DNA from: Gammaproteobacteria bacterium | Lineage (GTDB): Bacteria > Pseudomonadota > Gammaproteobacteria > SZUA-140 | Reading direction: 5' to 3' | DNA: 64,000 nucleotides | NCBI GenBank assembly: GCA_016218365.1 | Contig: JACREF010000008.1 | Coordinates: 62,001 to 126,000, forward strand | In this document: positions 4,877 to 35,905 of the stretch, piece by piece | Layout of the letters: each line of letters opens with the position of its first letter | Position numbering within the stretch: position 1 is the first letter of the stretch | Translations under genes and position numbers: made by a program | Notes under the pieces: generated by a model | The model's database searches: none | The model's input: only the letters and a program-made list of their open reading frames with translations | Told to the model about the DNA's origin: nothing

Positions 4877-4880
4877 GAAA

Positions 4881-15176: not shown

Positions 15177-15212
15177 TATTTGCCTCCTATCCCAATAATC
15201 TCCCCTTTAGCT

Positions 15213-16849: not shown

Positions 16850-16954
16850 TTATCATCCCATAGTATCCAAATAAATGTGCCACTTCGAAAAACACCACGA
16901 AGAAGCTTCTCCCAAAACGTTCCCTTACCTGAACGCCACAAAACAAGAAACACC

Positions 16955-17522: not shown

Positions 17523-17548
17523 GTAACCGCTCCATCAACCCCCTATTG

Positions 17549-19108: not shown

Positions 19109-19131
19109 GGCGGCATTTTAACAAAATACGC

Positions 19132-19817: not shown

Positions 19818-20016
19818 GGGTTGCTCCTGTGAAATAATCCACGCAGAAGTATCACCACTTCGATCATGCATTAAAAGATGGGGTTGATGGAGCGGTTACG
19901 AGACTTCTGCGCCAGAAGATAGTACGCCCATCAGCAGGAGGCTTCAGGCAATGAAATGACGGACCGTGCATTGATCAGAACTGATCGCGCCACTCGAAAA
20001 GAAAGAAGGCGAGTTA

Positions 20017-20754
20017 TTAAACGCTCACGACGTTTTTTAACTCTTTATACTCATTTTCGCGTCGCTTCATTTCTTTATATAAGGCTTTAGCCAGAATAAA
20101 AGCAAAAATAGACAGCATTCCTATTACGCCAATAGACCAAATATTGCTATGTATTTTAGTAAATACATGCACGAATATAATGGCCAAGAATAAAAGGGCA
20201 AGGGGAATAATAAAACATTGCATTACTAAATATTGATTTATCTTAGAAGATTTATCGGTCCGAAGTATTTTGCGTAATAAAGTTTTTACATCATCTAATT
20301 CTTTATATCTTAACCGTTCATCAGCATTCCATCTTGCGAGCTCGTAGAATGCTCCGTCTTTAAATCCAAACGATATGTAATCTGTAATTATTGGATCGTC
20401 ACTTGACCAAATCTCAATCCTGTCGAATGCACACTGATTATGTAGCTGATCGATATGTATTAGAGCCGGAATGGCATAAATTGGAATGTTGTGCTTATCA
20501 AAGCTACCATAGATAAATTTCTTAGGTAGATAATATTTCCAAATTTTAATATCGCTCTCCAAGAGCTTTGTGGCAGTAATTGTAACATTACTGCGAACAT
20601 GATTGACACAATCAACACATAGAAGTTGAGGAATGACTTTGCCATTAGGGGCAATTCTTTCTATAACCTGTGACTCTGGCGCACTATATTGACTAGCATT
20701 GATTTCATATATTAAGTAATTTGTAACACCGCCAGCAAAATTATTTGCGCTCAT
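20017..20754 (-). CDS. Membrane protein of unknown function (245 residues)
   Basis: Start ATG 20754 has AAGGA six bases upstream. A soluble N-terminal region of about 170 residues (containing CVDCVNH, a possible metal or redox pair) is followed by two transmembrane segments (FIIPLALLFLAIIFVHVF; WSIGVIGMLSIFAFILA) and a basic tail. No family is recognised. It is the last gene of a four-gene minus-strand run with the methyltransferase, symporter and another membrane protein. Confidence 0.65.
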   Translation of the reverse strand: MSANNFAGGVTNYLIYEINASQYSAPESQVIERIAPNGKVIPQLLCVDCVNHVRSNVTITATKLLESDIKIWKYYLPKKFIYGSFDKHNIPIYAIPALIHIDQLHNQCAFDRIEIWSSDDPIITDYISFGFKDGAFYELARWNADERLRYKELDDVKTLLRKILRTDKSSKINQYLVMQCFIIPLALLFLAIIFVHVFTKIHSNIWSIGVIGMLSIFAFILAKALYKEMKRRENEYKELKNVVSV

Positions 20755-20792
20755 ATTGATCCTTACAAACAAAAAGCAGAACGATCTCCATG

Positions 20793-21527
20793 CTAGGACT
20801 TTATAATTTCCGAAATGAAGGCTTTAAAAGAATCTGCTGTCACGCGAAATAATTTATTCATAGACTCTAAATACTGAACAAAAAATTCAACCACGAGAAT
20901 GAATAGATAAATGGACGCAAGACCAATAAATAATTCGACAGGTAGGTAAAATCCTAATTGGGCTAGAATCGGGGCGAAAACAAATACGCAACCCAAAAAA
21001 AAGAATATAAAATCATTTACGATGATAAAAGAGTTCGTTTTTTTCTCATCGTCGATATCTAGCAATATATAGGAAAATTTTATATCAAAAATAATTATTA
21101 AGGCCCCTTCAATGAAAACTATAATTGACATTAGCCATGGATTTTCCACACTAACAAAATACGTTAAAAAAACTGTAGTTGCAGCAAGGATGGAGAGAAT
21201 CGTGTCCATAAACCTTGTGAGCGGCAACCTTGTTGACTCATCTAATTGGTTCATCGCATTGTTAAATGAGCTATCCTCGTCGGAAAATTCAATCCCAAAA
21301 AGAATCCGTAAGTGTGTAACAATAAGTACTAGAAATATGAGTCCAATAATGAACGGCGTAAATTCATTAGTTGATGCGAATGATTTTGCTACTGCGTTAA
21401 CCCCACCAAAGCTTAACGCATCTTTGTTTTGTATAGCTTGGCAATCAATCCATTTAAATATCCATACAACGGCGGTACACAGGAGGACAAATCCTAGACG
21501 TGCTGATTTTTTTTGAGCTTTTTCCAT
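20793..21527 (-). CDS. Multi-pass membrane protein of unknown function (244 residues)
   Basis: At least five transmembrane segments are visible (LGFVLLCTAVVWIFKWI; FIIGLIFLVLIVTHLRILF; ILAATTVFLTYFVS; IIVFIEGALIIIF; FFFLGCVFVFAPILAQLGF; IGLASIYLFILVVEFFV). No family is recognised. AGGGG lies before the ATG. The gap to the symporter gene is 30 bp, so they are likely one transcript. Confidence 0.65.
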   Translation of the reverse strand: MEKAQKKSARLGFVLLCTAVVWIFKWIDCQAIQNKDALSFGGVNAVAKSFASTNEFTPFIIGLIFLVLIVTHLRILFGIEFSDEDSSFNNAMNQLDESTRLPLTRFMDTILSILAATTVFLTYFVSVENPWLMSIIVFIEGALIIIFDIKFSYILLDIDDEKKTNSFIIVNDFIFFFLGCVFVFAPILAQLGFYLPVELFIGLASIYLFILVVEFFVQYLESMNKLFRVTADSFKAFISEIIKS

Positions 21528-21557
21528 TAACTCAGCCCCTCAGTCATATTGCCTTCG

Positions 21558-22898
21558 TTAAGTTTTCCGAGATCGAAGCACTAAAGTTCCAAACAGCAAG
21601 AACCCTGGAATTACAATCAAATAGGCATTCTCCGGAGAAAGCAACCCCAACACAGCAAGAATAGTAAATAATGCCAAATTAAGTACCATGCTCCACTGAA
21701 CTTGCCACTGCTTTGGTTTAATAAAGAGTGATCCTAATACCATAGGAGATATGACAAGGATTGCGCTTAATAACCACGTATAAATTGCTACCAACTCCCT
21801 GAAAATAAGCGAGAGCACGACTGCACTTCCAGCGATGACAATGACAAGCACACGGCTCTTTGAAATGGACTGCCGATGCGCCATTGCTTCTACATCACGC
21901 ACACCTCTAATTCTAAGTAGCTCTCGACCGAGAATTCCCGCCAGTAAAAAGATTTCTGTGTCAGCTGTACCCATGATCGTGCTGAGCACAAGAATAACGG
22001 TCAAGTAAGCAGCCCATGCTGGAAGCCCGGAGGAAATGGCATCAACAAACGCGGAATCAGGGCTCAGTGTAATCCCACCTTCTTTTGTAAGAATGCCCAG
22101 TAGCGCAAGTAGTGCTCCAAACATTAACATACTTGCAGCACCAATTATCAGCCCCCCACTTGCGGCCCTATCACTTCGTGCTGCATAAATTCTTTGCCAT
22201 ACGTCAGCACTTGATGCTGCGGCAAAAAAGCCAGTAATTGTTAAGCTAACCCATACCATGATCGGGAGTGTTTCCGCAGAAAAGGGATGCAATCCTCCTT
22301 TAACTCCTGCCGCAACAGCCACAATAATAAGTGGCATTAGAAGTAGTCTCGATATGCCCTGAATCATATCAGTCGCCAATACCGTCTTAAATCCTCCAAT
22401 TACCAAATACACGGCCGCAACTGAGGCTACAATTAGCACACACAGTGCGTAGTCAATTTTTAAAAGTTGCTGAAGTATTTGCCCTCCTGCAACAAATTGA
22501 ATTATCAACATTGAGAAAAATGCTGCAAAAGAAACAAGGAATACTAGATGACCGGCTATTGGGCCAAAGTTTTGATGCGCATAGTCAGGTAAAGACAGCG
22601 CTCTCGCGCCAGTATCATTAGCGCGGATGCGCCCTGCATAAATCGCAAGGAAAGCAAACCCAAGCGCATACCCCAAGAAGAGGGAAAGTCCAGCCCACCC
22701 GTAAGTGTAGGCGAGCGCTGTAAGAGTTATCAATTCTCCGCCGCCCACAAGGGTAAACAAGGCGGAGCCAACATATGCGGGGGACGCATTACGTCCGCCC
22801 ATTAAGTATTCGTCTACTGTCTTGTGCTTGCGCGTTGCCAAAGAAACTGCAACCACGAGCGCGCTGTATGCGATTATTACAATGAAAATATTATTCAT
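21558..22898 (-). CDS. Sodium:solute symporter family protein
   Basis: 446 residues with about 12-13 hydrophobic segments. VDEYLMGGRNASPAYVGSAL and GGGELITLTALAYTYG are typical of the first helices of SSS transporters, with SADVWQRIYAARSDRAA later. It is somewhat shorter than common members. It would import a small organic solute with Na+; the substrate is unknown. The ATG overlaps the stop of the methyltransferase by 4 bp, so synthesis of a methylated compound and its transport may be linked. Confidence 0.85.
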   Translation of the reverse strand: MNNIFIVIIAYSALVVAVSLATRKHKTVDEYLMGGRNASPAYVGSALFTLVGGGELITLTALAYTYGWAGLSLFLGYALGFAFLAIYAGRIRANDTGARALSLPDYAHQNFGPIAGHLVFLVSFAAFFSMLIIQFVAGGQILQQLLKIDYALCVLIVASVAAVYLVIGGFKTVLATDMIQGISRLLLMPLIIVAVAAGVKGGLHPFSAETLPIMVWVSLTITGFFAAASSADVWQRIYAARSDRAASGGLIIGAASMLMFGALLALLGILTKEGGITLSPDSAFVDAISSGLPAWAAYLTVILVLSTIMGTADTEIFLLAGILGRELLRIRGVRDVEAMAHRQSISKSRVLVIVIAGSAVVLSLIFRELVAIYTWLLSAILVISPMVLGSLFIKPKQWQVQWSMVLNLALFTILAVLGLLSPENAYLIVIPGFLLFGTLVLRSRKT

Positions 22899-23524
22899 AG
22901 ATTTGAGTTTGGCTTAATTATTGTGATTACATCCCCAATCCGATTACGTGCATAATTGCATTTTGGCGGAGGGTTAATGGGAACCGAAACGAAATTGAAA
23001 TCGAGATTAAATTTGGCAAGCCTCACATGAAATTCAGGAAGGGTTCGTAGCGCCCCTGAAAAATCTATAAATCCCAATTTACCACCTGGTTTAAGAATTC
23101 TTAGCGCATGCGGCAAAATAGGGGATACAAATTTCAGAGTCGCTTCAGCTGATCCGTCAAAGACCCCACGGTCATCGGGATCAGCGTCATAGACTATCGC
23201 ATGAAAATACTCTTCTTTGATCATAGGCAATGCCGTCTGCCATGAAGATATGATCAGATTTGCACTCAGTGGCTGTTTTTCAAGGAGTGGCACAAGAGTA
23301 TGGTGGTGAGCCTCGATGATCCAATGTTCACGTGTGCTAATTTTCTGAATCGCTTCGGACGCCATTCCGAGACCGTAACCAACTTCAGCCACTACATCAT
23401 TTAGGCTAACCACAGCCTCGACAAGTTTTTTCTGAATTGGCCTTTCCCAAACTTCAACGCTCGAAACCCCATTAATCAAGAGCCGATCCGTGGTAATCTC
23501 AATTTTTGTTTGGGCTCGAATCAT
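22895..23524 (-). CDS. SAM-dependent methyltransferase, guanidinoacetate N-methyltransferase-like
   Basis: 209 residues. VVAEVGYGLGMASEAIQ is motif I of the GAMT/RMT2-like group, followed by EHWIIEAHHHTLVPLLE (acidic ribose-binding residue), IVYDADPDD and ILKPGGKLGFIDF. In these enzymes a guanidino or similar amine is methylated. The substrate here cannot be told from sequence. It is the first gene of the run with the Na+ symporter and two membrane proteins. Confidence 0.72.
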   Translation of the reverse strand: MIRAQTKIEITTDRLLINGVSSVEVWERPIQKKLVEAVVSLNDVVAEVGYGLGMASEAIQKISTREHWIIEAHHHTLVPLLEKQPLSANLIISSWQTALPMIKEEYFHAIVYDADPDDRGVFDGSAEATLKFVSPILPHALRILKPGGKLGFIDFSGALRTLPEFHVRLAKFNLDFNFVSVPINPPPKCNYARNRIGDVITIIKPNSNL

Positions 23525-23657
23525 GCTTAGGCTCTTTTCATTGCGGGCGAGATTTTCGGTAAATTGATCAGAGGTTCCTTAGGTGTTTTTACCAAAATGT
23601 GTTGTTGCTTACCTTAAATTAGCATAGAAATATAACTGGCTTGATGCCAAATTAAAT

Positions 23658-24296
23658 TTAGGAGCTATGCTGCGCGTAAGGATTTCTTAAAAATAATTCC
23701 GAATCTTGGTGAAGTGACAAACTATCATTTGTGAATTTTGGGGTGACCGCGATATAACGGTGCAAGAAATGGTCAATCTTTACGTCGGCGAGGATGGTGT
23801 ATTTCGTGTCTGCTTCGGCTACGAACAACGAGCCATCCTTACAACGCCATGCTACTACAAAATTTCCATGAACTTGAGCATCCTGTCCTGGTTCCCAGCT
23901 TTCGATAATTGGCTCGACGGTATCCAAGGCAGGCGTGGTTACGTGGCCCTCCAAATAAAACTGAGAGTCAAGCCTTCCATTCACATACTTGCATTCAGTA
24001 CGCAAACGCAACCTACCACCATTACGAAAATTGATTGCCCTTTCATATCGATATGGATATTCCCCAAATGGATTCTCTATACCTCCTTTTGTAGCACAGA
24101 CATTCGGGTATCCCGTGATTAGGCACGCACTCAATACCGTTGGGTCAAAATCATTTGGCAACCTTCTTAGCATGTACTTCCCAGAAGTGATGCCAGAAAC
24201 TGGATCAATAGTTCCATTCCCGCCCAGTTCAATAGACTGGCCGTTAATCTGGCCAATAAGTTCGGCCGAAAACTCTCGTTTCGCTAAAGTGGACAT
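23658..24296 (-). CDS. Unrecognised 212-residue protein
   Basis: Start at ATG 24296 (MSTLAKREFSAELIGQINGQ) with GGAG upstream; an in-frame ATG at 24311 is possible. The sequence looks beta-rich (GKYMLRRLP, GRLRLRTECKYVNGRLDSQFYLEG) and has no signal peptide or membrane segment. It may be a lipocalin-like or DUF3237-like barrel, which I cannot confirm. It is 133 bp upstream of the methyltransferase in the same direction. Confidence 0.55.
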   Translation of the reverse strand: MSTLAKREFSAELIGQINGQSIELGGNGTIDPVSGITSGKYMLRRLPNDFDPTVLSACLITGYPNVCATKGGIENPFGEYPYRYERAINFRNGGRLRLRTECKYVNGRLDSQFYLEGHVTTPALDTVEPIIESWEPGQDAQVHGNFVVAWRCKDGSLFVAEADTKYTILADVKIDHFLHRYIAVTPKFTNDSLSLHQDSELFLRNPYAQHSS

Positions 24297-24436
24297 TATA
24301 ATTTGCTCCATAAAATCACTAAGATTAATAATAGCTTATACACCTTTCCTGTCAAGCTCCCAGTTCCCCCTATTTCCCCATATTGAAATTATTCGAGTTA
24401 ATGCGGAATATATCATTGGCTCCAGTTTGCGCATAC

Positions 24437-24460
24437 AAAAACCCGCCGGAATGGCGGGTT
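24437..24460 (-). terminator. Intrinsic terminator after the RadC-like gene
   Basis: On the minus strand AACCCGCC-ATTCC-GGCGGGTT is followed by TTT. It lies 27 bases past the RadC-like stop codon. Confidence 0.8.
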
Positions 24461-24486
24461 CCAAAATGATTATATTTCTCCTGTTG

Positions 24487-25053
24487 TCATACCATCCCCC
24501 GCTCTGCCAAACTCACCACACACCCCTGCCCCACCACTAGGTGATCCAGCACCCGCACATCTATGAGGGCGAGCGCCTGTGTGAGCCTACTGGTTAAGGC
24601 AACGTCAGCACTGCTTGGCTCCGCCACCCCCGATGGATGATTATGAGCGAAGATAACCGCTGCCGCATTCAAGACAAGGGCACGCTTCACAATCTCGCGG
24701 GGATAGACACTGGCACCGGAAATGGTGCCCCGGAAGATTTCTTCAGCTCTGATGAGACGATGTCTGTTGTCGAGAAAGAGGCACGTGAAGACTTCGTGCT
24801 CAAGACCATGTAATCTCACCTTGAGATAGTCTCCCGCTTGTGCAGGAGTGGATAGGGTATCACCTTCACGCAGTGCTTCCTCTAAAGAACGTTTGATGAG
24901 TTCCCGTGCTGCGAAAAGCTTGGGGTGATAGCTACTGCTTCCCTCTTCGGCAAAGAACAGAGCTGTGAGTGAATGTTTATGAAACATCTGTGCTTTCTTT
25001 TTTCCAATGAGGATGGCTAAAAGATCACGGTTGGATATATGGTGCGTAGTCAT
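24487..25053 (-). CDS. RadC-like JAB-domain protein
   Basis: 188 residues from ATG 25053 with AAGGAG before it. The JAMM-type motif [17 protein letters not shown] is that of RadC/YkfG-like proteins, with a divergent N-terminal region instead of a full helix-hairpin-helix pair. Such genes are common on plasmids, islands and phages, where their role is unclear. It is divergent from the VirD4-like operon across a palindrome-rich region. Confidence 0.88.
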
Positions 25054-25114
25054 GTCGAGCTCCTTTTCGTAAAGAACAAACCCGACATATATAGTTAACC
25101 AGATATGGATTAAT

Positions 25115-25148
25115 CTCACGACGTGAGAGTGTGCCACTGTGACACACT
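25115..25148. promoter_or_regulatory. Palindrome cluster between radC-like gene and VirD4-like operon
   Basis: CTCACG-A-CGTGAG (25115-25127) is directly followed by AGTGTG ... CACACT (25128-25148), in which GTG/CAC triplets alternate. GTGAGAGTGTGCCAC (25123-25137) spans both and is nearly the same as GTGAGAATGTGCCAC at 12089-12103. A regulator acting on both divergent genes is likely. Confidence 0.6.
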
Positions 25149-25190
25149 CCTACTCCGTGTGTTCTTGTGCGATATCGGTATGCTCTGTGA

Positions 25191-26381
25191 ATGAAGGAGA
25201 GGATTAATTACTTCGCCATCACCAATGGGCGCAAAAAGTTGAGGTTCGGCATCAAGGAGCGCGACCGACTCTTCCACATGTACGTCATCGGCAAGACCGG
25301 CACAGGAAAATCAACACTCTTGGAAACCTTGGTTCAGCAGGACATCCGACATGGGCAAGGCCTCTGCCTCATTGATCCCCATGGCGACCTAACTGAACGG
25401 GTAGTTGCGAAGATGCCAGAAGAGCGGAAAGATGATCTCATTTACCTCGATGCAGCGGACATATCTCAGCCCTACGGCTACAACCCCCTGCGTCGTGTGC
25501 GCAACGACAAGGTCCCCCTTGCCGTCTCTGGGCTCATGGAAGCCTTCAAGAAGCTCTGGGATGAAGCATGGGGTGTACGGATGGAACATGTATTCCGAAA
25601 TACCCTGTATGCCCTCATTGAGTACGGGGATGCAACACTGCCGGACATCCTGCGAATGCTCACGGATACTGGATTTCAACGAGAGGTGCTCCGGAAGGTG
25701 GAGAATGTACAGGTGCGGCAATTCTGGGAAGATGAGTTCCCTCATTACAACCCCCGCTACCGACAGGAGATGATCGCACCCATCCAGAACAAGGTGGGAG
25801 CCTTCCTCGCCGATCCACGGCTCCACCGGATATTTACTGATGCGCCTGTTGATCTCCATTTCCGCCACATCATGGATACCGGCAAAATCCTTGTCGTAAA
25901 CCTCGCCAAGGGGCGTTTGGGGGATGACAGCGCAAACCTCTTGGGGGCACTACTGGTCACCACGCTCAATCTCGCTTCCTTTAGTCGGAGCGACACGCCC
26001 GAGGAAATGCGTCGGCCATTCTCTGTCTACCTCGACGAATTCCAGAACTTCACCACGCTCTCGGTGGCAAACATGATCTCGGAATTACGCAAGTACAGGG
26101 TAGGATTAATCCTTGCCCACCAGCACCTCTACCAGCTTGCACCAGAGGTACGGCATGCGGTGCTGGGAAATGCTGGCACGGTCATTTCTTTCCGCGTCGG
26201 ACCAGAGGATGCGCGGATACTCGCCCGGGAGTTCGAGCCAGTGTTTTCTTCCAATGACTTGACGACCCTCCCCAATCATCATATCTACTTGAAGCTCATG
26301 ATCGACGGGGCACCCTCGCAGCCCTTTAGCGCGGGCACCCTCCCGCCATATATTTTTTCCGAGAAGCGTCATACCATATGA
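25191..26381 (+). CDS. VirD4/TraG-like type IV coupling ATPase (short form)
   Basis: 396 residues. Walker A VIGKTGTGKSTLLETL (about residues 32-47), LCLIDPHGDLTERV, Walker B FSVYLDEFQNF (about 282-292), and RKYRVGLILAHQHLYQL belong to the T4SS DNA-binding (TrwB/TraG-type) ATPase group. No N-terminal membrane segments are seen, so it is probably soluble. It heads a three-gene run with a 128-residue protein and a second, larger ATPase of the same group. No relaxase is present in the element, so a conjugation role is uncertain; DNA handling or defence is also possible. Confidence 0.85.
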   Translation: MKERINYFAITNGRKKLRFGIKERDRLFHMYVIGKTGTGKSTLLETLVQQDIRHGQGLCLIDPHGDLTERVVAKMPEERKDDLIYLDAADISQPYGYNPLRRVRNDKVPLAVSGLMEAFKKLWDEAWGVRMEHVFRNTLYALIEYGDATLPDILRMLTDTGFQREVLRKVENVQVRQFWEDEFPHYNPRYRQEMIAPIQNKVGAFLADPRLHRIFTDAPVDLHFRHIMDTGKILVVNLAKGRLGDDSANLLGALLVTTLNLASFSRSDTPEEMRRPFSVYLDEFQNFTTLSVANMISELRKYRVGLILAHQHLYQLAPEVRHAVLGNAGTVISFRVGPEDARILAREFEPVFSSNDLTTLPNHHIYLKLMIDGAPSQPFSAGTLPPYIFSEKRHTI

Positions 26382-26410
26382 CCTCAAGTTTCTTTTTCAA
26401 GGAGGAGTGC

Positions 26411-26794
26411 ATGAAACTGCTACTACGGCGCAATCAAAAATCCGGCATGATGGGGATGGGAAAGATTAGCTTCATTCTGGAGGTACGGGCGGAACTCACG
26501 GATGACGAAAAAGCCAATGTGAAAAAATACAAGCTCGGCGAGACCATGCTCTACGAGCGGGAGAAGATCGTTGATCCCGGAAGTGGGCTCCTCGGTATTG
26601 CCTCGCGGATGGCATTTCGGATGATGAATATCTCTGTCTCCGTGAATGATCTTGAGGAAGGCAAGAAGATCGAATGCAAGGATGTGGTGGAGATGCTTGC
26701 CGTGGAAGAACAGATCATGGAAGCGGCGAAGACCTTCAAGGCGGTGCTGACTGCGGCGGCAAGCTTTGGTGGAGAACAAATCATCGAGGTGTGA
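26411..26794 (+). CDS. Unrecognised 127-residue protein between the two VirD4-like ATPases
   Basis: Start ATG 26411 has a perfect AAGGAGGAG site. The sequence (LEVRAELTDDEKANVKKYKLGETMLYERE ... GIASRMAFRMMNISVSVNDL) is helical and soluble. Its placement exactly between two coupling-type ATPases suggests a partner protein of both. No family is recognised. Confidence 0.72.
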   Translation: MKLLLRRNQKSGMMGMGKISFILEVRAELTDDEKANVKKYKLGETMLYEREKIVDPGSGLLGIASRMAFRMMNISVSVNDLEEGKKIECKDVVEMLAVEEQIMEAAKTFKAVLTAAASFGGEQIIEV

Positions 26795-26798
26795 TCAT

Positions 26799-29546
26799 TT
26801 GTCATCGAACTTCTGGAACTGGCTGAGTCGCTCCCCCAAAACGCGCGAGCTCATGGATACTTATGCTCTGCTCTCTCAGGTGAAAGACGTAGCGCAAGTA
26901 TCACCCTTTTACGCGGAAGAAGACCTGAATGAGTTTCTGTATGAACTCATTCAGGATGTCTGCGCACGCAAGGAAATCATTCCTTCGATCCCCTTGGGGG
27001 AAGCACTCTGGGAAACAATCCGACACCTGCTCTATCTTGAAGGGTTTCTGCTTCATATCCCCGATGATCTGAGCATTGAACATCTGACGCTCGAAGAGGG
27101 GGTGGTGTTTCGAGCATCCCTCAAACGCCACCTCCGCTTTCTGTCACAGCATGAACGACTGCTTCCCGTATGGCGCGAGAAGCTTGCCATCGTCTTGTCC
27201 GCCATCCTGGAATACTTTCCCCTCTCCGCCTTTACCGACATTGATGAGCGAGGGATAGCGGCGGACGATTCGGTGATTTTGCCCGAAGCAAAAGCTTATG
27301 ACCTCTGCGACAACCTGCCGGAAGTTGTTGAACGGCTCATGGTGACGTTCTTTGATGAAGATGTGAGGGATGCGCATCTCTTTGATGCCTTGCGAGAGCG
27401 GTTTGATAACAATCTGCTTTTTGCCTCCGGGATTCCGCTGGAGAAACGGCATGAAGCAACCTCAAGAAAGATAACATTCCCCATGGAACAGCGCGAGAAG
27501 TCGCCTGAGCATCTGGTCAACCTCTATCTCAACGGAACACCGTTTGCGCAGCTTTTTGACAGCCCCTTGCCGTTTGCCATTCCCTTCCCCGCTCGCTTTG
27601 AACATACGCATATCGTCGGCGGTACCGGGCATGGCAAAACCCAGCTCATACAGTTTCTGATCAACCATGACTTGGTGCGATCGCAAGAGGATGGGCGCTC
27701 TGTTGTGGTGATTGATAGCCAAGGGGATTTGATTCGGACCATTTCACGCCTTGGATACTTTAGTCCCTCGGCTGAAGGGAGCCTTGCCGATAGGCTCGTC
27801 ATCATTGACCCTACCGACATTGAATATCCTGTATGCCTCAACATGTTTGATTTTAATCGGGACAGACTCTCGGGATATACCGCGCTTGATAGAGAAAAGA
27901 TATTAAATGCCACGGTAGAGCTCTATGAATATTTCTTTGGGGCGCTCTTGGGTGCTGAGCTCACCCAACGGCAAGGGCTCATATTCCGATATCTCGCGCG
28001 GCTCATGATCGAGATTCCCGATGCGACCATTCATACCTTCCGTGAACTAATGGAGCATGGTGAGCGGTTCAAGCCCTACATGGAGAAGCTCCAGGGAACC
28101 ACGAGGAGCTTCTTCGAGACAAGATTCTTTGACCGGCAGTTCAATGAAACAAAGAAGCAGATTCTCACGCGGCTGTGGGGCGTGCTTTCCAGTGCCTCGA
28201 TCGAGCGCATGTTCTCGCACCCGAGAAGTAAAATTGATGTCTTTGAGCTTTTAAACCAAGGGAAGATCATTCTCATCAACACGGCCAAGGATCTCTTGGG
28301 ACAGGAAGGCACCGCGATCTTTGGCCGCTTCTTCATTTCACTCATTGCACAGGCTGCCATACAACGCGCAACAATTCCTGCCCATGAACGACGACCAAGC
28401 TTCGTCTACATCGATGAGGCGCAGGATTATTTTGATGACAACATCTCGCACCTCTTGAGCCAGGCGAGAAAGTACCGTGTGGGGCTCATCTTTGCCCACC
28501 AGAACCTTGATCAATTGGGAGCGGGACTTCGGGCAAGCGTGCTCTCAAGTACCTCTATCAAGTTTGCCGGAGGCGTGAGCGCCAAAGATGCCCATGCCCT
28601 CGATACCGAGATGCGCTGCGGGCCGGAGTTTCTCCTTGCTCAAAAGAAAGGGCGCAACCATACCGAGTTTGCCTGCTATGTGAAAAGCCACACCGCAAAG
28701 GCGCTCTCCGTCCGCATACCGTTTGGATATGTTGAAGCGCTTCCCACGCTCACCTATGCAGATCACCAATATCTGCTTGAAGAAAACAGGAACCGGTACA
28801 GCGAACCGGTGATGCTACCTACACCATCGTTGCCAGTGGAGCCAATCCCCCCTTCCATACCAAAACCACCTACGCAACCAAAGAGAGAGAAGGTTGGTAC
28901 CCCATCGGTATCAGAGCCGGAGTCGATCAGTCCCAGCCCGCGCAGAGAAAACCCACCTCCCGTCGGAGTAGAACCCACTTCAAAAGTTGAACCACGAAGT
29001 AGGGCTACGAAAAAACAGAAAACAATTCTTGAGCAAGGGCGCGGCGGAAAGCAGCACAAATATCTTCAACATCTTATCAAGCAACTTGCCGAGGAGCGTG
29101 GGTTTCGAGCTGCGATTGAGGAAACCATCCTCGATGGTGCGGGGCGGATTGATGTTGCCGTGACCCATGGTGAGGTAAGAGTGGCTTTTGAAATATCCGT
29201 GACCACCAACCAAGATCATGAGCTCGGCAATATCGAGAAATGTTTTGCTGCGGGCTATTCGCATGTTGTTCTGGTCGGTAAGAGCGAGCGGCATATCAAA
29301 ACGCTTGCCACATTCATTGAAGAGAACCTTGATGAGGCAAATCAAGGGAAGGCACGGTATATTGCTCCGGAAGCCTTGGTTGAGTATTTTGATACCCTGC
29401 CCCTCAGGGCGCCGAGAGAACAAACGGTACGGGGCTATAAGGTGAAAGTCTCGCAGGCGACACTTTCACCGGCCGATGTAGCTGAACGGCGGGCGGCTAT
29501 TGCGCAGGTCATTGCGCGCTCACTCTCGAAGGCGCAAAAGGATTGA
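26799..29546 (+). CDS. Large VirD4/TraG-like ATPase with C-terminal nuclease-like domain
   Basis: About 915 residues from TTG 26799 (GAGGTG upstream); the frame is open from 26766. The N-terminal 260 residues are helical, then Walker A IVGGTGHGKTQLIQFL, VVVIDSQGDLIRTI and Walker B FVYIDEAQDYF with YRVGLIFAHQNLDQL mark a coupling-type ATPase. After a Pro-rich linker (about residues 660-740) comes a restriction-endonuclease-like domain: GAGRIDVAVTHGEVRVAFEISVTT, carrying the D ... E pattern with T in the lysine position. Fusion of a DNA pump and a nuclease-like domain is unusual for conjugation and suggests DNA sensing or processing. Confidence 0.82.
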   Translation: MSSNFWNWLSRSPKTRELMDTYALLSQVKDVAQVSPFYAEEDLNEFLYELIQDVCARKEIIPSIPLGEALWETIRHLLYLEGFLLHIPDDLSIEHLTLEEGVVFRASLKRHLRFLSQHERLLPVWREKLAIVLSAILEYFPLSAFTDIDERGIAADDSVILPEAKAYDLCDNLPEVVERLMVTFFDEDVRDAHLFDALRERFDNNLLFASGIPLEKRHEATSRKITFPMEQREKSPEHLVNLYLNGTPFAQLFDSPLPFAIPFPARFEHTHIVGGTGHGKTQLIQFLINHDLVRSQEDGRSVVVIDSQGDLIRTISRLGYFSPSAEGSLADRLVIIDPTDIEYPVCLNMFDFNRDRLSGYTALDREKILNATVELYEYFFGALLGAELTQRQGLIFRYLARLMIEIPDATIHTFRELMEHGERFKPYMEKLQGTTRSFFETRFFDRQFNETKKQILTRLWGVLSSASIERMFSHPRSKIDVFELLNQGKIILINTAKDLLGQEGTAIFGRFFISLIAQAAIQRATIPAHERRPSFVYIDEAQDYFDDNISHLLSQARKYRVGLIFAHQNLDQLGAGLRASVLSSTSIKFAGGVSAKDAHALDTEMRCGPEFLLAQKKGRNHTEFACYVKSHTAKALSVRIPFGYVEALPTLTYADHQYLLEENRNRYSEPVMLPTPSLPVEPIPPSIPKPPTQPKREKVGTPSVSEPESISPSPRRENPPPVGVEPTSKVEPRSRATKKQKTILEQGRGGKQHKYLQHLIKQLAEERGFRAAIEETILDGAGRIDVAVTHGEVRVAFEISVTTNQDHELGNIEKCFAAGYSHVVLVGKSERHIKTLATFIEENLDEANQGKARYIAPEALVEYFDTLPLRAPREQTVRGYKVKVSQATLSPADVAERRAAIAQVIARSLSKAQKD

Positions 29547-29645
29547 TATTTGGTGCGTTATTCGAGATATTAGGCTCATTTTTCCGGGCTAATTCTCACA
29601 TTGGATAGGATTGCATACTGCCAAATTGGGAACAGGGGGCATGAA

Positions 29646-30701
29646 ATGATCTTGTGCAATTTTAATATCAACAACTTGTTTATACGGTACAAATTCGGGT
29701 CGACGTTTCCCGGTGATCAAAGCGGCAAGAGCGCTTCAGAAAACGAAGACTATGGATATCTTCCGCTGTATCAAAAAGGAAGCTTTGAGATATTTAATGC
29801 GGCACAGCGTAAGCTCGCTTCGCTTGCACTCACGCGTGGCGGGACTGTATGGCCTGATATCATCTGCCTTCAAGAAGTCGAGAGCCTCATCGCCCTCCGT
29901 ACCTTCAATGAACAATTCCTCAATGCAGCGTTTCCCTATGCGCTCCTCATCGATTCACGTGACTTCCGTCAAATCGACGTCGGTATATTATCCAAATATC
30001 CAATTATGAGCGTCCACTCACACATAGATGACAAAACGAAGGAAGGCGAATATATCTTTAATCGTGACTGCCTAGAAGCAACTATTCAGCTAAAGAAGGG
30101 TACGGATGTTACCCTATTTATAAATCACTTTAAATCGAAACTCGCACAGGGAAAAACTCCCGAGGCCCGCATGGCGGACATACAACGTGCAAATGCGAAA
30201 AGAAGATTACAAGCTGAAACGGTTCTCAAGATTGTCAGAGAGCGCTTCCCGGGCAATAGCTTCAATTCGGAGAATTTTGCCATATTGGGCGACTTTAACG
30301 ACACCCCACAGGCTCCAGAGCTTGCGTCTCTTGCTGGCAATCATGGACTAAAAGATGCCATTGAATCCGGCCTGCCCCCTGAGGAGCGCTGGACCCATTA
30401 TTACAAAAGTGAGGGTAGCGTCTCCCAGCTCGACCACATTCTTTTATCGCCATCGCTTGGCCGCAAACTAAAATCAGTCCAAATTGAAAGAAGGGGTATT
30501 GGATACAGGGAGCACTCAAGGAGGGACGACAGCCTAATACTTCCTAAGCAGGTCAAACTAAAACAATCCGATGATGACTCATCCCCGCCACTAATCGACT
30601 TTCAGTTTAATCGATTTGATGATGTAACGACTGAAAATTGCGCATCGGATCATTGTCCAATTTTTGCTGAGTTCGATTTGTCGACATCAGTCTTGCTTTA
30701 A
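29646..30701 (+). CDS. Endonuclease/exonuclease/phosphatase (EEP) family protein
   Basis: 351 residues from ATG 29646 (GGGGG upstream); TTG at 29601 is a less likely earlier start. Motifs of the EEP fold are present in order: ILCNFNINNLF, DIICLQEVES (metal Glu), ILGDFNDTP (catalytic Asp/Asn) and ASDHCPIFAEF (Asp/His). Family members cut DNA, RNA or phosphoesters. It is convergent with the ubiquitin-like operon and follows the large ATPase by 100 bp, so it may belong to the VirD4-like unit. Substrate unknown. Confidence 0.85.
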   Translation: MILCNFNINNLFIRYKFGSTFPGDQSGKSASENEDYGYLPLYQKGSFEIFNAAQRKLASLALTRGGTVWPDIICLQEVESLIALRTFNEQFLNAAFPYALLIDSRDFRQIDVGILSKYPIMSVHSHIDDKTKEGEYIFNRDCLEATIQLKKGTDVTLFINHFKSKLAQGKTPEARMADIQRANAKRRLQAETVLKIVRERFPGNSFNSENFAILGDFNDTPQAPELASLAGNHGLKDAIESGLPPEERWTHYYKSEGSVSQLDHILLSPSLGRKLKSVQIERRGIGYREHSRRDDSLILPKQVKLKQSDDDSSPPLIDFQFNRFDDVTTENCASDHCPIFAEFDLSTSVLL

Positions 30702-30825
30702 CAACACTCATGCTTAGTAATGCAATCACCAGGCACACCGTACCAATATCGATGAAGATCATAGTGCTGTGACACGGCTATTTGCTCGGCTGTTAGGGCA
30801 AAAAGAACAGATAAGGTCTCTTCAT

Positions 30826-31380
30826 TTATGCCAATAAGTTTATGCATCCACCAGCCGCTGGAGGAATATCTCTATTACTGCTTCTTTTAAAATTGTTTTT
30901 ATTGACTACAACAGCGCGACCACGGCGCACAAGCTCATTTCCGGCCCATAAAACTTCCCAAGGAATTGCATGGAGCAATTTGGCAATCATTTCAAAGTGA
31001 ATTGGGCTGTCAGTTGGGAGACTATTGAAAACCGTTTCTATTAAAGATTCATCGATGGTCACACTAGCTAAGTCAGTGGAGTCGCACCAAAGAATGTGAT
31101 CATACCATACGATGAAATGCGCTCGGCAGCCTGTATCCCTCCAGATAGATGGATATATTGTAAGTTTTCCGTTGCGCTCGTACTTGTGCCAAGCCTTACC
31201 TGTGCGCTGATCGAGATTTACAGTTATAGTTTCACCGCAACCATCAGGACATGCCATTACTATGGTCCGTGGTATCCCTCGAACGACAAGAATATAATCT
31301 CCTGGGGCATTTAGTTGTCCTATTGCTCCCGCGTGTTTATCTGTTGTTCCTTTCGAAATAATGCGGTGCGCTCTAGGCAT
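30826..31380 (-). CDS. DUF6527 protein, ubiquitin-like operon, last gene
   Basis: 184 residues. VMACPDGCGETITVNLD, then LTIYPSIWRDTGCRAHFIVW and ILWCDS form the Cys-rich core of the DUF6527 family (CPxGCGE ... PSVWR..GC.sHF.i), thought to bind metal. The second half (LPTDSPIHFEMIAKLLHAIPWEVLWAGNELVRRG) looks like a winged helix. Such proteins sit in multiubiquitin/E2/E1 gene clusters in other bacteria. A second DUF6527 gene lies directly upstream, so the pair may work as a heterodimer or as substrate adaptors (inference). Confidence 0.75.
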   Translation of the reverse strand: MPRAHRIISKGTTDKHAGAIGQLNAPGDYILVVRGIPRTIVMACPDGCGETITVNLDQRTGKAWHKYERNGKLTIYPSIWRDTGCRAHFIVWYDHILWCDSTDLASVTIDESLIETVFNSLPTDSPIHFEMIAKLLHAIPWEVLWAGNELVRRGRAVVVNKNNFKRSSNRDIPPAAGGCINLLA

Positions 31381-31406
31381 AATATACCTTCACTAGCATT
31401 TTCATA

Positions 31407-31940
31407 TCAAAGCCTTCCGAATGAGCCTCGTTGTTCGCCAACCCCTTCACGTGCGAAACCTTTTCGAACAAGGCGGCGACAGACCATTAGTACGTCCCAT
31501 GGTACTTCGCCTAAATCTTCAGCGATATCAGAGAAAGAAATCAACCCTGTGTCTGATAGCCGCTCACTTACAGCCTCGACCAATTGCGTGTATCCATAAG
31601 TTTCAGTTGCACTATCAAAATTATCTTCGTACCTACCAAACAAAAATATCTTATCGTTCCAAATAATATAGTGACTTTCACACCCGCTTTCCCGCCAAAC
31701 AGAGGGATAGAGACTTAATCCAGTATGTCGGCTCATATAGAGCCTCCAAGCCGGGCCTGCGCGAGGATCGAGATTTATGGGGAACTCTTCACCACAACCA
31801 CAGGGACATGAAAGTAAGAGCCAACGTGGCCTACCACCTCTCTTGATGAGCACTACATCTCCGGCTGCCTCTAGATAGTCAGATGCCTCCCCTCGCGATT
31901 GCACCGTTCCTTGGAAACGTAATGCACTTGTGGCCATCAT
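31407..31940 (-). CDS. DUF6527 protein, ubiquitin-like operon, fifth gene
   Basis: 177 residues. LLSCPCGCGEEFPINLD, LSLYPSVWRESGCESHYIIW and a C-terminal winged-helix-like part (ISFSDIAEDLGEVPWDVLMVCRRLVRKG) match the protein of 30826-31380 domain by domain at low identity. It retains four Cys in the first block where the other has three. The two genes are an old duplication or two distinct subunits. It lies 13 bp after the kinase-like gene. Confidence 0.75.
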   Translation of the reverse strand: MMATSALRFQGTVQSRGEASDYLEAAGDVVLIKRGGRPRWLLLSCPCGCGEEFPINLDPRAGPAWRLYMSRHTGLSLYPSVWRESGCESHYIIWNDKIFLFGRYEDNFDSATETYGYTQLVEAVSERLSDTGLISFSDIAEDLGEVPWDVLMVCRRLVRKGFAREGVGEQRGSFGRL

Positions 31941-31953
31941 AGGGTATTCACTA

Positions 31954-33549
31954 TTAGAGCTCCGGTGGCCTACTTATACCCGAAGAGATTCTCGTAAGGA
32001 TAAGCTCAGCTATTACGTACGCACCTGCACGACGGCTTTCTTTCAGCTTAACGAACTGTTTTTTATTGCTGGCTTTTTTTAAAAGGGCTAAAGCCAAAGC
32101 CGCCGCATATTGGTCACCATGCTTATCATCATAGTGCTGCATCCTTCTTGCATAAAGTCGAATTTGGTGAATACAAGCATAATACCAGGATGACTGATTA
32201 CTCGGGTGGCAGCGCGTTGACGCACTATGTAATGGGGTTTCTCTATAGAGAGGCATAATGGAATTTATCCATTCGACTTCATCTCTTTTATCATCACTGA
32301 ATCCATCAACTAGTAGACCTGCCTCAAGACATGCGGCATCATAAACAATTGGATTTTCGCAATGTTTCTGGAAATCAATGATAATCGCATCCGCAGAGCG
32401 CACAAGAACATTTGTTGCATGTAGATCGCCGTGAATTGGGCCAACTAGCACAGGTGAAAATGTACACTTCTCAAATAACACCCGTAAATCTGAAAGGGTT
32501 TTTGTCGCTCCTAACTCTCTTGCGCGCGCTTCACGGTTTTCAGGGATTTTTTCTGGAAAATGCGGGAGAAGGTACGCAGTGAGGGGACTCTGTACATTCT
32601 GAGCGTGTAGGTACCATCCACGAAGAGTTGAGTTGAATAGGCAAGCAATAGCAGCTGCCGCACGTCCATCACTTGCGCAGTCACGCAAACTTTCAGACTC
32701 TTCAACAAAGTCGCCTACAATAATTCCGTCTTCAGCGCCGAGACAACAGCGATCATGGACAAGATGTGGTCCGAGGTGGAAGGGTATATATGGACGAACA
32801 CCATCTTCGTAGTTCTTATACTCTGCAAAGATACCAGCTCGCTTCCCGATTTTCACAAAGTACGGACGCGGCCATTTCCCGTAGTGTCCTTTTGCTAGTT
32901 CGGCGTATGCGCGATAGACCAAGACATCGGAGAGCCCATCCAGCATCGGTACAAGATGGACTTCTGCACAATCCCAGAATGCGCGTCGGATCAATAACTC
33001 GTTACTGCTACTAAACTTTATCTCTTTACCATCTTCATCCTTAGAATCTACAATCAGATCGAAATTTGGAGCCTTTCCAAAAGGAGTCTCTGAAATTAGA
33101 TTAGCGATAACTGCCCAATCAATAGCCGTGTCACATACGTACAGAAACGGAGGTGGCGGGTTACCTGATCTTTTTGGCATCCATGCATCAAAACTATCTT
33201 GCTCCGAAAGACTTAGGCCTGCTGATGGAAGCTCAAGACGATTAAGTGTATTAATGATGATCGATCGTCCATCAGGTGCCAACCGAACAAATATTGAACA
33301 GTCGTGATCGAGAAGCCGCTTCGCGTGTTCTTCAAAGAGCGGGACGATTGAAAGATATTTCTTAATGTTCTGCGTGAACACAACCGCTGCAACCCCCGAC
33401 AGATAAGCGGTGTCGCGCAGATCGTCTTCTGTACACGGTGTAACTAAAAGTCCACGTTCCAAAAATGAACGTCCTTCATCTCCTAAAGGAATGCCGCCAA
33501 AACACGCAATGCGAGTTCTCGTACGAGAAAGTATCTCAGCTATCGCCAT
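31954..33549 (-). CDS. APH/choline-kinase-like phosphotransferase in the ubiquitin-like operon
   Basis: 531 residues from ATG 33549 (14 bp overlap with the E1-like gene; the frame is open to 33648). VGPIHGDLHATNVLV (HGDxxxxN catalytic loop) and AIIIDFQKHCENPIVYDAACLE (metal-binding Asp) are those of the aminoglycoside-phosphotransferase fold; this arrangement also appears in kinase-like domains of conflict systems (TCAD9-like). The N-terminal 150 residues and a middle beta region are not recognised. A small-molecule or protein kinase built into a ubiquitin-like conjugation operon is not part of the classic set. Substrate unknown. Confidence 0.75.
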   Translation of the reverse strand: MAIAEILSRTRTRIACFGGIPLGDEGRSFLERGLLVTPCTEDDLRDTAYLSGVAAVVFTQNIKKYLSIVPLFEEHAKRLLDHDCSIFVRLAPDGRSIIINTLNRLELPSAGLSLSEQDSFDAWMPKRSGNPPPPFLYVCDTAIDWAVIANLISETPFGKAPNFDLIVDSKDEDGKEIKFSSSNELLIRRAFWDCAEVHLVPMLDGLSDVLVYRAYAELAKGHYGKWPRPYFVKIGKRAGIFAEYKNYEDGVRPYIPFHLGPHLVHDRCCLGAEDGIIVGDFVEESESLRDCASDGRAAAAIACLFNSTLRGWYLHAQNVQSPLTAYLLPHFPEKIPENREARARELGATKTLSDLRVLFEKCTFSPVLVGPIHGDLHATNVLVRSADAIIIDFQKHCENPIVYDAACLEAGLLVDGFSDDKRDEVEWINSIMPLYRETPLHSASTRCHPSNQSSWYYACIHQIRLYARRMQHYDDKHGDQYAAALALALLKKASNKKQFVKLKESRRAGAYVIAELILTRISSGISRPPEL

Positions 33550-34885
33550 CCTGATCCTGTCGAGCGAGAAGTGGCCACGAATCACCACGAGCAAAACTAC
33601 CGGTGCGTGAGCAAATGTAACAGGTAGGATTGGGATGGGCTCGAACATTCTTCAAAACTGAATTTACCGCGTTATAGAGAATATGACGCGCGCCAACCGG
33701 AATGCCAGCAGCCATTGAGAGTAGCATCGTGACGGCAAGCGAAACTACTGTGCCGTTAAGTGACATAACTGCTGGTGCATGTTCGCGTGCACCTTGAATA
33801 TAGGGGTCTGATTGGCGCTCAAATGCAGACATCATGTCACGTCTAACCTCGTTTGCATCCAACAGACTACTACAAGTGAAGCACGCATGACCCGGAGCGA
33901 GCAGCTGAACGCGTCCATAGATATATGTAACACTTCCCCCCGATACAGCAATGGTCGTTCCAACGTCAATGCACGGAATCAAATACTGGTAAGAAATTTG
34001 CTGCAAGACGGCGCGGCTTCCGTGAGAGTCAGTGCAACCGAAAATAATATCTGCGTTCAATAGCTCTTTTGCGGTGCTCGATCTAGTGACGTCACCCTCA
34101 ATACAAGTTACGGTCGCATACTTCGCAACTGCATTAATGTATCGCGCCGCTATTTCAACTTTCGGATGCCCGATATCGCCTGGCAAGGCATTTGCAACCC
34201 GATTTAGATTCGTGGATTCGAGAACATCTGGATCCACGAGGATAAAATCTTGAACTCCAAGGTGCACGAGCTGTTGCGCAACGATTGATCCTGTACCACC
34301 CAAGCCAACAATCGCTATACGCAAGCGTTGGAGTGCTTGTTGTCCAGCTGAACCAAAAGCACGTACCTGTCTGTCGAAGATCTCTAAATCTAATGATAAC
34401 GGCGCTACTGGATCAAAGATAACCTCGCGATGTGAGCCTACTACGATAATGCGTACTCCCTCATCTTTCCCTAGACGGCGTGCGCGCATACCACCCTCAC
34501 TTACAACAAGAGCAGCATGCTCTTGTGCCGGATGTCGATGCGCCAGAAAAGCTGCGAGGCGCTCTTCGCCTAACGAATCGATGTCTGAAAATATGGGGGC
34601 TTCAGTGCCTGGATGACTGTGCACAAAAATGAGCGAAACCATGTTACCCCGAGCTCGCTTGGTCACCCGCGCAACAAACTCAGGACTTAACTCGGCTTCG
34701 ACATACCCCTGCTTCGTGTAATCGTCTTGTGTGGGAAATTCAATTTCACGAACCAGGAGCCGCACTGTTCTATCTGCGCGCACAGTTTGACTCGCATACA
34801 AAATCGCACATCTCTCAATTTGTCTGCCAGTCAGTTCACCACGGATGGTGTCGGCATCATCAGCAGCAAGAACGAGCTCAATCAT
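33536..34885 (-). CDS. JAMM deubiquitinase-E1 activating enzyme fusion
   Basis: 449 residues. Residues 1-150 are a JAB/JAMM peptidase: Glu24, then H89-S-H91-P followed by seven residues and S100..D103, all metal and catalytic residues present. Residues about 165-449 are a ThiF/E1 domain: IAIVGLGGTGSIVAQQL (G194..G199), LVDPDVLESTNLNR, IIFGCTDSHGSR, and two CxxC pairs (ACFTC; TCYIC) for zinc. The fusion is known from bacterial ubiquitin-like clusters, where JAMM matures or removes the modifier and E1 adenylates it. The ATGA-type overlap with the E2-like gene is 4 bp. Confidence 0.9.
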   Translation of the reverse strand: MIELVLAADDADTIRGELTGRQIERCAILYASQTVRADRTVRLLVREIEFPTQDDYTKQGYVEAELSPEFVARVTKRARGNMVSLIFVHSHPGTEAPIFSDIDSLGEERLAAFLAHRHPAQEHAALVVSEGGMRARRLGKDEGVRIIVVGSHREVIFDPVAPLSLDLEIFDRQVRAFGSAGQQALQRLRIAIVGLGGTGSIVAQQLVHLGVQDFILVDPDVLESTNLNRVANALPGDIGHPKVEIAARYINAVAKYATVTCIEGDVTRSSTAKELLNADIIFGCTDSHGSRAVLQQISYQYLIPCIDVGTTIAVSGGSVTYIYGRVQLLAPGHACFTCSSLLDANEVRRDMMSAFERQSDPYIQGAREHAPAVMSLNGTVVSLAVTMLLSMAAGIPVGARHILYNAVNSVLKNVRAHPNPTCYICSRTGSFARGDSWPLLARQDQDGDS

Positions 34886-35292
34886 CGGGCTGGGTTAAGT
34901 CGCTGCATGATGACTTTAAAATACGTAATCAGCGAGTCGTTATTCGGGTTCCAACTCTGAAGATGCCACGAAAACCATGTGGTGTTTCGCTGGTTAACTG
35001 TATCGCCTGGGATTGGATTGGAGTCGTTGGAAGCTTGTGGGGTAGCAGAATTTTCTAGCCTTAATCTACCCGGCTGTACCCAGAAACAGTCTGGTTGAGC
35101 TGCCGGGTAGCCTGGTGGTGCCACAAATAGGATCGTTGCATCCTTTCGGTCCCATCCGGGGGGCATTTCTATCCCCGGTACAGTAATTAAATACGAGCCA
35201 TTAGATAATGGCGTGAAACTAGGTTCCTCAACCGAGGATTTGGCACGCCAATATTTAAAAGCCTCGAACTGTTCTTCGAATAATGTCATCAA
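34882..35292 (-). CDS. E2-like conjugating protein (prokaryotic E2 family E)
   Basis: 136 residues. LFVAPPGYPAAQPDCFWV and TTWFSWHLQSWNPNNDSLITYF are the two conserved stretches of the Prok-E2_E family. The only Cys is C69, in the PDCFW stretch, and H110 is conserved in SWHLQSW. Whether C69 is the thioester Cys is not known to me. The start overlaps the stop of the modifier gene by 4 bp and the stop overlaps the E1-like start by 4 bp, showing tight co-translation. Confidence 0.85.
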   Translation of the reverse strand: MMTLFEEQFEAFKYWRAKSSVEEPSFTPLSNGSYLITVPGIEMPPGWDRKDATILFVAPPGYPAAQPDCFWVQPGRLRLENSATPQASNDSNPIPGDTVNQRNTTWFSWHLQSWNPNNDSLITYFKVIMQRLNPAR

Positions 35293-35534
35293 GCACCGAA
35301 GGTCGCTGGGGGCACCGCGTAGAAATGCTTAGCACCACGTGTTAGGTCTATGCCTTCGCCGTCCGATATAGCTCTGTCTGGATTATCCCCTTCTTCTTCA
35401 AGGAAAAGCTGATAAGTAGGATTTACTCCCGCAATTCTCTTAATGTCAGCCCCCGTCAGAGATGAGTGTTCAGTCTCATACTTCTTGGCATCGACAAAGA
35501 AGTGATACTGCTTAGGTTTTTGATGTTCACTCAT
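35289..35534 (-). CDS. Multiubiquitin-domain modifier protein
   Basis: 81 residues. YHFFVDAKKYETEHSSLTGADI, YQLFLEEEGD and GIDLTRGAKHFYAVPPATFGA follow the Multi_ubiq family with a single beta-grasp unit; many relatives have several tandem units. It ends Phe-Gly-Ala, so removal of the last Ala by the JAMM enzyme would expose a C-terminal Gly for activation (inference). It is the first gene of the operon, with GAGAGGA before ATG 35534 and an extended -10 (TGCTATGAT) at 35567-35575 on the minus strand. Confidence 0.88.
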   Translation of the reverse strand: MSEHQKPKQYHFFVDAKKYETEHSSLTGADIKRIAGVNPTYQLFLEEEGDNPDRAISDGEGIDLTRGAKHFYAVPPATFGA

Positions 35535-35645
35535 AGTGAGTCCTCTCTTTACTGATATAGTTAAATATCATAGCAGTTTGAATTATATCATGGAAAAAGC
35601 ATACGCATTTTGACATAAGAATTACTGTTCCCTCAATTTTGCCCC
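35535..35645 (-). promoter_or_regulatory. Promoter region of the ubiquitin-like operon
   Basis: AT-rich. On the minus strand TATAAT (near 35590) and an extended -10 TGCTATGAT (35567-35575) lie upstream of the AGAGAGGA ribosome site. No intrinsic terminator separates it from the HTH gene, so read-through from that side is possible. Confidence 0.55.
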
Positions 35646-35879
35646 TCATTCCAGGTCCAAAAAATGAACAATCCTTGGCATCAGCCCAGCCATCGGGTCA
35701 GTTTTTCCTTTCTCCCAATTTAAGACAGTAAATGAGGCAACCCCTAATATTTCACTCACTTCCTTCTGGGTAAGGCCAAGTTCCAGCCGCCGCTTCTTGA
35801 TGTGCTCCCCCAAGGTCCGTGGCTCAAAATCAGTTTCCTTTGGTTTCAATGCCTTAAGGCGCACAGGGAGGTATGGCAA
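35646..35879 (-). CDS. XRE-type helix-turn-helix module, separated C-terminal part of the recombinase gene
   Basis: 77 codons if TTG 35879 is the start. TLGEHIKKRRLELGLTQKEV, ILGVASFTVLNWEKGKTDP and MPRIVHFLDLE form a Cro/XRE helix-turn-helix. Its frame is open to attR and beyond. Joined at attP it continues in frame from codon 513 of the left-edge recombinase via the six codons HRRVAF. In the integrated state there is no good start site, so expression is uncertain. It lies 111 bp upstream of the ubiquitin-like operon in the same direction. Confidence 0.8.
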   Translation of the reverse strand: MPYLPVRLKALKPKETDFEPRTLGEHIKKRRLELGLTQKEVSEILGVASFTVLNWEKGKTDPMAGLMPRIVHFLDLE

Positions 35880-35905
35880 GAAGGCAACGCGTCTATGCCC
35901 ATGCG
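35875..35905. other. attR junction
   Basis: Element DNA GGCAACGCGTCTA (35883-35895) meets the core TG (35896-35897) and then comM codons. GGCAAC is the inverse of GTTGCC at the left end. Coordinates follow from alignment of the host codons with the ComM family. Confidence 0.85.

Follow-up and report, generated by a model that had tools for sequence, protein, structure and literature searches.

Bacterial ubiquitin-like systems form a recent field of study, and several described systems resemble the locus that we report here. The Bub systems, exemplified by BubB and BubCD of Citrobacter, combine a ubiquitin-like modifier (Ubl), a separate E2-like protein that lacks the E2 cysteine and has a Ser-x-His (S-x-H) motif, and a fusion of a JAMM peptidase with an E1; Bub operons are regulated by CapW, by CapH with CapP, or by CapK with CapS (219 and 59 of 544 operons; PMC13373217). 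The type 6e polyUbl operons of Iyer, Burroughs and Aravind 2006, in the passages of that survey that describe them (PMC1779556), encode Ubl repeats or a single Ubl, a Cys-less E2/RWD-like protein placed between the Ubl and the JAB-plus-E1 gene, and a C-x3-C zinc-finger protein. BilABCD, a bacterial ISG15-like system, also holds a Ubl, an E1, an E2 and a JAMM peptidase within one operon, the JAMM protein being separate and the catalytic Cys of the E2 lying in a CEHH motif (PMC11354881). The subject of this report is a six-gene operon in a stretch of 64,000 nucleotides from a Gammaproteobacteria bacterium of the SZUA-140 lineage (assembly GCA_016218365.1, contig JACREF010000008.1, positions 62,001 to 126,000; "the window" below means this whole 64-kb stretch), in which a Bub-type core is accompanied by a gene for a kinase-like protein of the APH fold that recurs in a distinct branch of such operons.

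The operon is encoded on the minus strand (coordinates of all window features are collected in Table 1) and consists of six intact, uninterrupted open reading frames (ORFs) for, in order, a Multi_ubiq modifier, a Prok-E2_E protein, a JAMM-E1 fusion (JAB plus ThiF), the kinase-like protein and two DUF6527 proteins. An earlier interpretation made without database searches, referred to here as the sequence-only reading, had named these domains and described six tightly packed genes; a Pfam profile search returned Multi_ubiq, Prok-E2_E, ThiF with Prok-JAB, TCAD9 with APH, and DUF6527 twice, the stated coordinates hold, and so do the gene spacings when the ATG at 33549 is taken as the kinase start. 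With that start there are two overlaps of 4 bp (35289-35292 and 34882-34885) and one of 14 bp between the E1 and kinase genes, followed by gaps of 13 bp and 26 bp. The alternative start, the first ATG at 33648, would add 33 residues and give an ORF of 564 aa, to which our kinase residue numbers refer; the start at 33549 is favoured because conservation sets in at about residue 28-44 and the structure model is poor over residues 1-42. A scan for promoters and terminators yielded nothing beyond chance level.

The Pfam TCAD9 profile, run over 398 genomes, gave weak matches in 237 of them, nearly all to generic APH kinases with HGDLH, and four matches above the cut-off; it is unsuitable for counting, and the linkage of the kinase to the operon was therefore tested with our own profiles for five families, run on every collected locus. 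Searches with the kinase alone yielded 13 plasmid records, six of which were inspected, and, with one genome per species, 11 loci, every one of which (11/11) holds the complete operon. Two further kinase loci, G373 in standard order and G643 rearranged, came from unbiased genome searches with the E2. Among the 20 kinase loci inspected, 18 have the standard order Ubl-E2-E1-kinase-DUF6527, their hosts including Bradyrhizobium, Mesorhizobium, Rhizobium, Sphingomonas, Novosphingobium, Phenylobacterium, Aurantimonadaceae, Acidobacteriales and Deinococcus; one is rearranged yet still linked (G643, with Ubl-E2-E1-DUF6527-second Ubl-kinase) and one, on plasmid L006, consists of kinase and DUF6527 remnants only. 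The second Ubl gene of G643, which lies between the DUF6527 and kinase genes (L051:10142-10405), encodes a single-domain protein. The E1 and kinase genes are adjacent or overlapping in 18 of 19 loci, the exception being G643, and pairwise distances of the kinases and of the E1s are correlated (r 0.95). The sequence-only reading was to count as refuted if the kinase-like gene were absent from all other such clusters and had inactivated sites; the survey finds it linked to the operon elsewhere with its sites intact, so that it belongs to a separate branch as a conserved component and is not a chance neighbour. The gene is absent beside plasmid E1 relatives of about 28-36% identity and in E2-bearing genomes outside the branch. 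Prok-E2_E is rare: it scored above the cut-off in 12 distinct genomes of approximately 1,050 searched and the kinase was present in three of the 12, a share that may be an underestimate because the Pfam E2 model scores the kinase branch weakly.

The kinase-like protein has the N-lobe Lys, the HGDxxxxN motif, the metal-binding Asp and the fold that characterize an APH-fold kinase. The HGDxxxxN and IDF sites that had been read as intact are so, as HGDLHATN at 406-413 and IDF at 424-426, and in an alignment of 19 kinases Lys266 is kept in 18 while Glu276, HGDLHxxN and Asp425 are each kept in all 19. These catalytic residues are conserved under purifying selection: between near relatives whose genes are intact, the ratio of nonsynonymous to synonymous substitution rates (dN/dS) of the kinase is 0.07-0.09, lower than that of the E1. 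An exception to this pattern of selection is L003 of Rhizobium sp. C104, in which the E1 frame is broken at 5475-6993 and the kinase is altered, among neighbours near-identical to those of the intact locus L013. An AlphaFold2 model of the kinase (pLDDT 77, pTM 0.70) has as its top Foldseek matches aminoglycoside 3'-phosphotransferases (APH(3')-Ia at 2.5e-8, with a TM-score of 0.52 on the target), followed by methylthioribose kinase and maltokinase. The N-terminal approximately 190 residues, an alpha/beta domain, matched nothing in Pfam at E values up to 10, and by modelled secondary structure look like a beta-alpha domain of the Rossmann or receiver type. The kinase-like protein shares with the TCAD9 and APH families (PF19974, PF01636) a C-terminal lobe with HGDxxxxN and DF motifs and the APH fold; TCAD9 systems differ in having vWA, MoxR and VMAP partners, none of which were found in the operon or among the annotated neighbours of the inspected loci, as well as in the N-terminal domain. 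Since the TCAD9 match spans the C-lobe only (296-423 of 429) and the partners are absent, we take it as evidence of the fold and not of membership in a ternary system.

The nearest solved relatives of the conjugation proteins are Citrobacter BubCD and BubB, in agreement with the earlier proposal of a Bub-type ubiquitin-like conjugation operon, and as judged from its predicted proteins the core is Bub-type, i.e., type 6e of Iyer 2006. The E1 aligns with BubCD (PDB 9ea4) over 320 residues across the JAMM and ThiF domains (1.1e-33); its motifs comprise the JAMM residues E24, HxH (89/91), S100 and D103, which are kept in every sequence of the E1 alignment, along with GxGGTGS, K242, CTD and two CxxC pairs, the first of which is lacking in the aligned Citrobacter sequence. 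PADLOC matches among the conjugation genes were confined to the E1 domain. The E2 matches BubB (PDB 9eae, 1.2e-4) in an alignment that takes in the S-x-H..WNP motif; its own sequence there is WFSWH..WNP, and it lacks a Cys at the canonical position. Our alignment of 34 E2s (19 from the kinase branch and 15 others) revealed a Cys in a strand motif that is specific to the branch (19/19 versus 0/15). Of the kinase-branch E2s, 17 have PDCFW and the remainder LDCFW-type variants, whereas the Citrobacter E2 has PDMFY at that place. All 19 kinase-branch E2s read FSWH at the Ser-x-His motif; among the 15 others, 12 have either WSRH or FSWH there. Transfer of the Ubl in Bub systems reportedly proceeds via oxyester rather than thioester intermediates, and both the Ser of this E2 motif and Ser375 of the E1, kept in 19/19 each, fit such a transfer. 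The modifier has Ubls 8u38 and 9d5b as its PDB relatives (about 2e-6). It had been expected to end in Gly, whereas its actual end is ...TFGA, i.e., FG plus one residue; its relatives end in FG, FGR, FGGGV, FGHGNH and similar, and since FG there is followed by a short tail at most, the end of the modifier probably requires trimming. The natural reading is that the JAMM domain would cut the modifier back to its terminal Gly. In comparison with Bub, what differs here is the kinase gene, the separate E1 branch and a winged helix on DUF6527; in comparison with type 6e, of which the passages cited above mention no kinase, the modifier has a single Ubl domain and the kinase is additional (PMC1779556). 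Bil differs in several ways, since here the JAMM domain is fused to the E1, the E2 has neither the CEHH motif nor its Cys and there is an additional kinase, and by these predicted features the operon is not Bil.

A tree of E1 sequences places the 19 kinase loci and one kinase-less locus damaged by insertion sequences in one branch and separates them from the other 16 E1s, which lack the kinase and to which BubCD belongs; 13 kinase-less E1s, BubCD among them, group at support 98/97. For the kinase, the simplest reading of the tree would be one gain and one loss. A haloarchaeal plasmid (L038) carries E2 and ThiF genes of this type on a very long branch. Full-text literature searches, with partial coverage that did not extend to the main Bub papers, returned no mention of a kinase in Bub-type operons, and the authors of those papers may already have seen the gene.

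The DUF6527 proteins have an invariant C45-x3-C49-x37-C87-x2-H90 pattern, with a spacing that matches the C-x3-C zinc-finger protein of type 6e operons (PMC1779556), and those of the kinase branch have an additional C-terminal winged helix. For copy 1 of the window only the winged-helix part gave a match among PDB sequences, a weak one to MarR (0.004), and a model (pLDDT 81) gave weak but concordant winged helix-turn-helix fold matches over about residues 113-176, none below E 0.001; a DUF6527 profile search of the PDB returned designed coiled coils, which we judged to be noise. The sequence-only reading had treated the DUF6527 pair as part of the system, and this did not survive the survey: the second copy is found only in the window, and all other kinase loci inspected have one. 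Copy 1 groups with Acidobacteriales and Bradyrhizobium copies and copy 2 with that of G643 (92/97), such that the two are not sisters and a recent tandem duplication is ruled out; the second copy was probably acquired rather than newly duplicated.

How might such an operon work? JAMM peptidases of these families trim modifiers, and E1 proteins adenylate them in an ATP-dependent manner. We envisage that the JAMM domain would trim the modifier after Phe-Gly, that the ThiF domain would adenylate its Gly carboxylate, and that the modifier would be handed to the E2-like protein, most likely onto the S-x-H Ser or else onto the branch-specific Cys, before its attachment to a target. The zinc/winged-helix DUF6527 protein may help to choose that target, by assisting in the recognition of the target or of nucleic acid. 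The kinase would phosphorylate either one of the cascade proteins or the tagged target, and would thereby gate the tagging, probably when triggered by invading DNA or DNA damage. We infer the kinase activity, its substrate, the trigger and the defence role. That this is a Bub-type operon of a separate branch in which a dedicated kinase phosphorylates a cascade protein or a target, thereby switching or directing conjugation, is a proposal to which we give roughly even credence. Several observations weigh against it: the kinase branch has support of 86/96, below the level starred in the tree; two kinase-less E1s sit on very long branches, which makes the deepest part of the tree uncertain; the Roseomonas locus L033, inside the kinase branch, keeps E1 and DUF6527 and has no kinase, its upstream genes having been removed by insertion sequences, which could mean either that the branch can do without the kinase or that this locus is decaying; and APH-fold proteins commonly act on small molecules. 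Moreover, according to a 2026 paper no protection against phage has been demonstrated for Bub operons (PMC13373217). A further possibility, which we regard as rather doubtful, is that the dedicated kinase phosphorylates the modifier, the E2/E1 or the target in order to license conjugation, as a bacterial counterpart of phospho-ubiquitin signalling, in which case the second Ubl of G643 would be a substrate or carrier.

An alternative that we consider unlikely to about the same degree is that the kinase is a HipA- or APH-like effector that would halt growth by phosphorylating a host housekeeping protein or a small molecule such as a nucleotide; Ubl conjugation would restrain or release it, and the Ubl cascade would be its control. 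Its top fold matches are small-molecule kinases, methylthioribose kinase and maltokinase included, its top Pfam match is to a conflict-system domain, and an eLife survey of conflict systems names active APH kinases, which are rare, as effectors that might phosphorylate small molecules (PMC7159879). Other Bub operons carry a protease-like gene at the operon end instead: in some kinase-less operons an SDH/ClpP-like serine protease gene follows DUF6527 (L034:5658-6551, L041:5658-6593), possibly as a functional swap for the kinase. Defence effectors are, however, usually swapped among close relatives, yet this kinase tracks the E1 very closely across the branch, and its novel N-terminal domain is no known toxin domain. 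The coupling of the kinase gene to the E1 gene could reflect a non-catalytic scaffold or E3-like adaptor that brings a target or ligand to the E1-E2 pair, as might the two-domain build with its novel alpha/beta domain, and bacterial conflict systems commonly contain kinase domains that are inactive (PMC7159879). We hold a scaffold to be improbable because it would not need the Lys, Glu, HGDLHxxN and metal-binding Asp that 18-19 of 19 divergent sequences retain. As to a chance assembly, in which the kinase-like gene and the extra DUF6527 copy would be unrelated passengers of a mobile island that holds many unrelated genes, that copy occurs at this locus alone and may be such a passenger; for the kinase the idea is refuted by a gene order that is identical in this genome and in Acidobacteriota, Alphaproteobacteria and Deinococcus, and by the presence of all genome kinase matches inside the operon, and overall it has next to no claim on our belief.

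Table 1. Features of the window and their positions (window numbering)
Feature	Position	Strand	Length	Remarks
Mobile island in comM	493..35897		35.4 kb	TG at both junctions (493-494, 35896-35897)
Serine recombinase, probable integrase	303..2033	-		left island end; resolvase N-terminal motifs read from sequence
Eco57I-type methylase beside BsuBI/PstI restriction endonuclease	6097..8594			
Second serine recombinase	10218..11819			
Two consecutive HerA/TraD-like ATPase genes	25191..29546			second 926 aa, PADLOC mad8 match 1e-17
Endonuclease/exonuclease/phosphatase-family gene	29601..30701			
DUF6527 copy 2	30826..31380	-	184 aa	PF20137 1.5e-14
DUF6527 copy 1	31407..31940	-	177 aa	C-x3-C ... C-x2-H beta domain and C-terminal winged helix; PF20137 4.8e-18
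Kinase-like protein, APH fold	31954..33549	-	~531 aa	TCAD9 1.9e-14, APH 5e-6
JAMM peptidase-E1 fusion	33536..34885	-	449 aa	ThiF 1.3e-38; Prok-JAB 5e-5, slightly below cut-off
E2-like protein	34882..35292	-	136 aa	PF14462 (Prok-E2_E) 3.3e-12
Ubl modifier	35289..35534	-	81 aa	single Multi_ubiq beta-grasp domain, C-terminus ...PPATFGA; PF14452 1.1e-11
Small Xre-type helix-turn-helix gene	35646..35879	-		directly upstream of operon, same strand; HTH_3 6e-9; possible regulator

The operon forms the final unit of an island inserted in comM; joining the two comM halves restores an uninterrupted reading frame, and most relatives have an intact comM. Within the island a second serine recombinase is found, and the island may for that reason be composite. 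It also carries the methylase and restriction endonuclease genes listed in Table 1 and, ahead of the operon, the HerA/TraD-like pair followed by the endonuclease/exonuclease/phosphatase-family gene. No kinase relatives were found in the family of the host genome or in phage records and viral contigs, and the latter led us to reject a phage origin; these negative results suggest that the operon came with a mobile element, not an evident phage. Elsewhere, a fusion of an M78 peptidase, a UvrD helicase and a PDDEXK nuclease lies directly upstream of the Ubl in six kinase loci (L012:104-3442, L013:51-3494, L018:93-3479, L003:1098-4493, and also L015 and L019), and a shortened form of it precedes the kinase-less operon of L037. 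Genes of a cyclic-oligonucleotide-based antiphage signalling system (CBASS) occur near kinase locus L001. Pairs or fusions of helix-turn-helix and ImmA/IrrE genes lie upstream of L004, L005 and L051, perhaps comparable to the regulators of Bub, and the window has the small helix-turn-helix gene only. From this genomic setting a role in phage defence is plausible.

Bub-type operons are still without a demonstrated function, and the branch with a fixed kinase offers a defined set of five proteins for reconstitution. The interplay of tagging and phosphorylation is so far known from eukaryotes, and this branch could show whether bacteria combine the two as well, with the branch-specific Cys of the E2 and the winged-helix DUF6527 protein as handles on how the E2 works and how targets are chosen.

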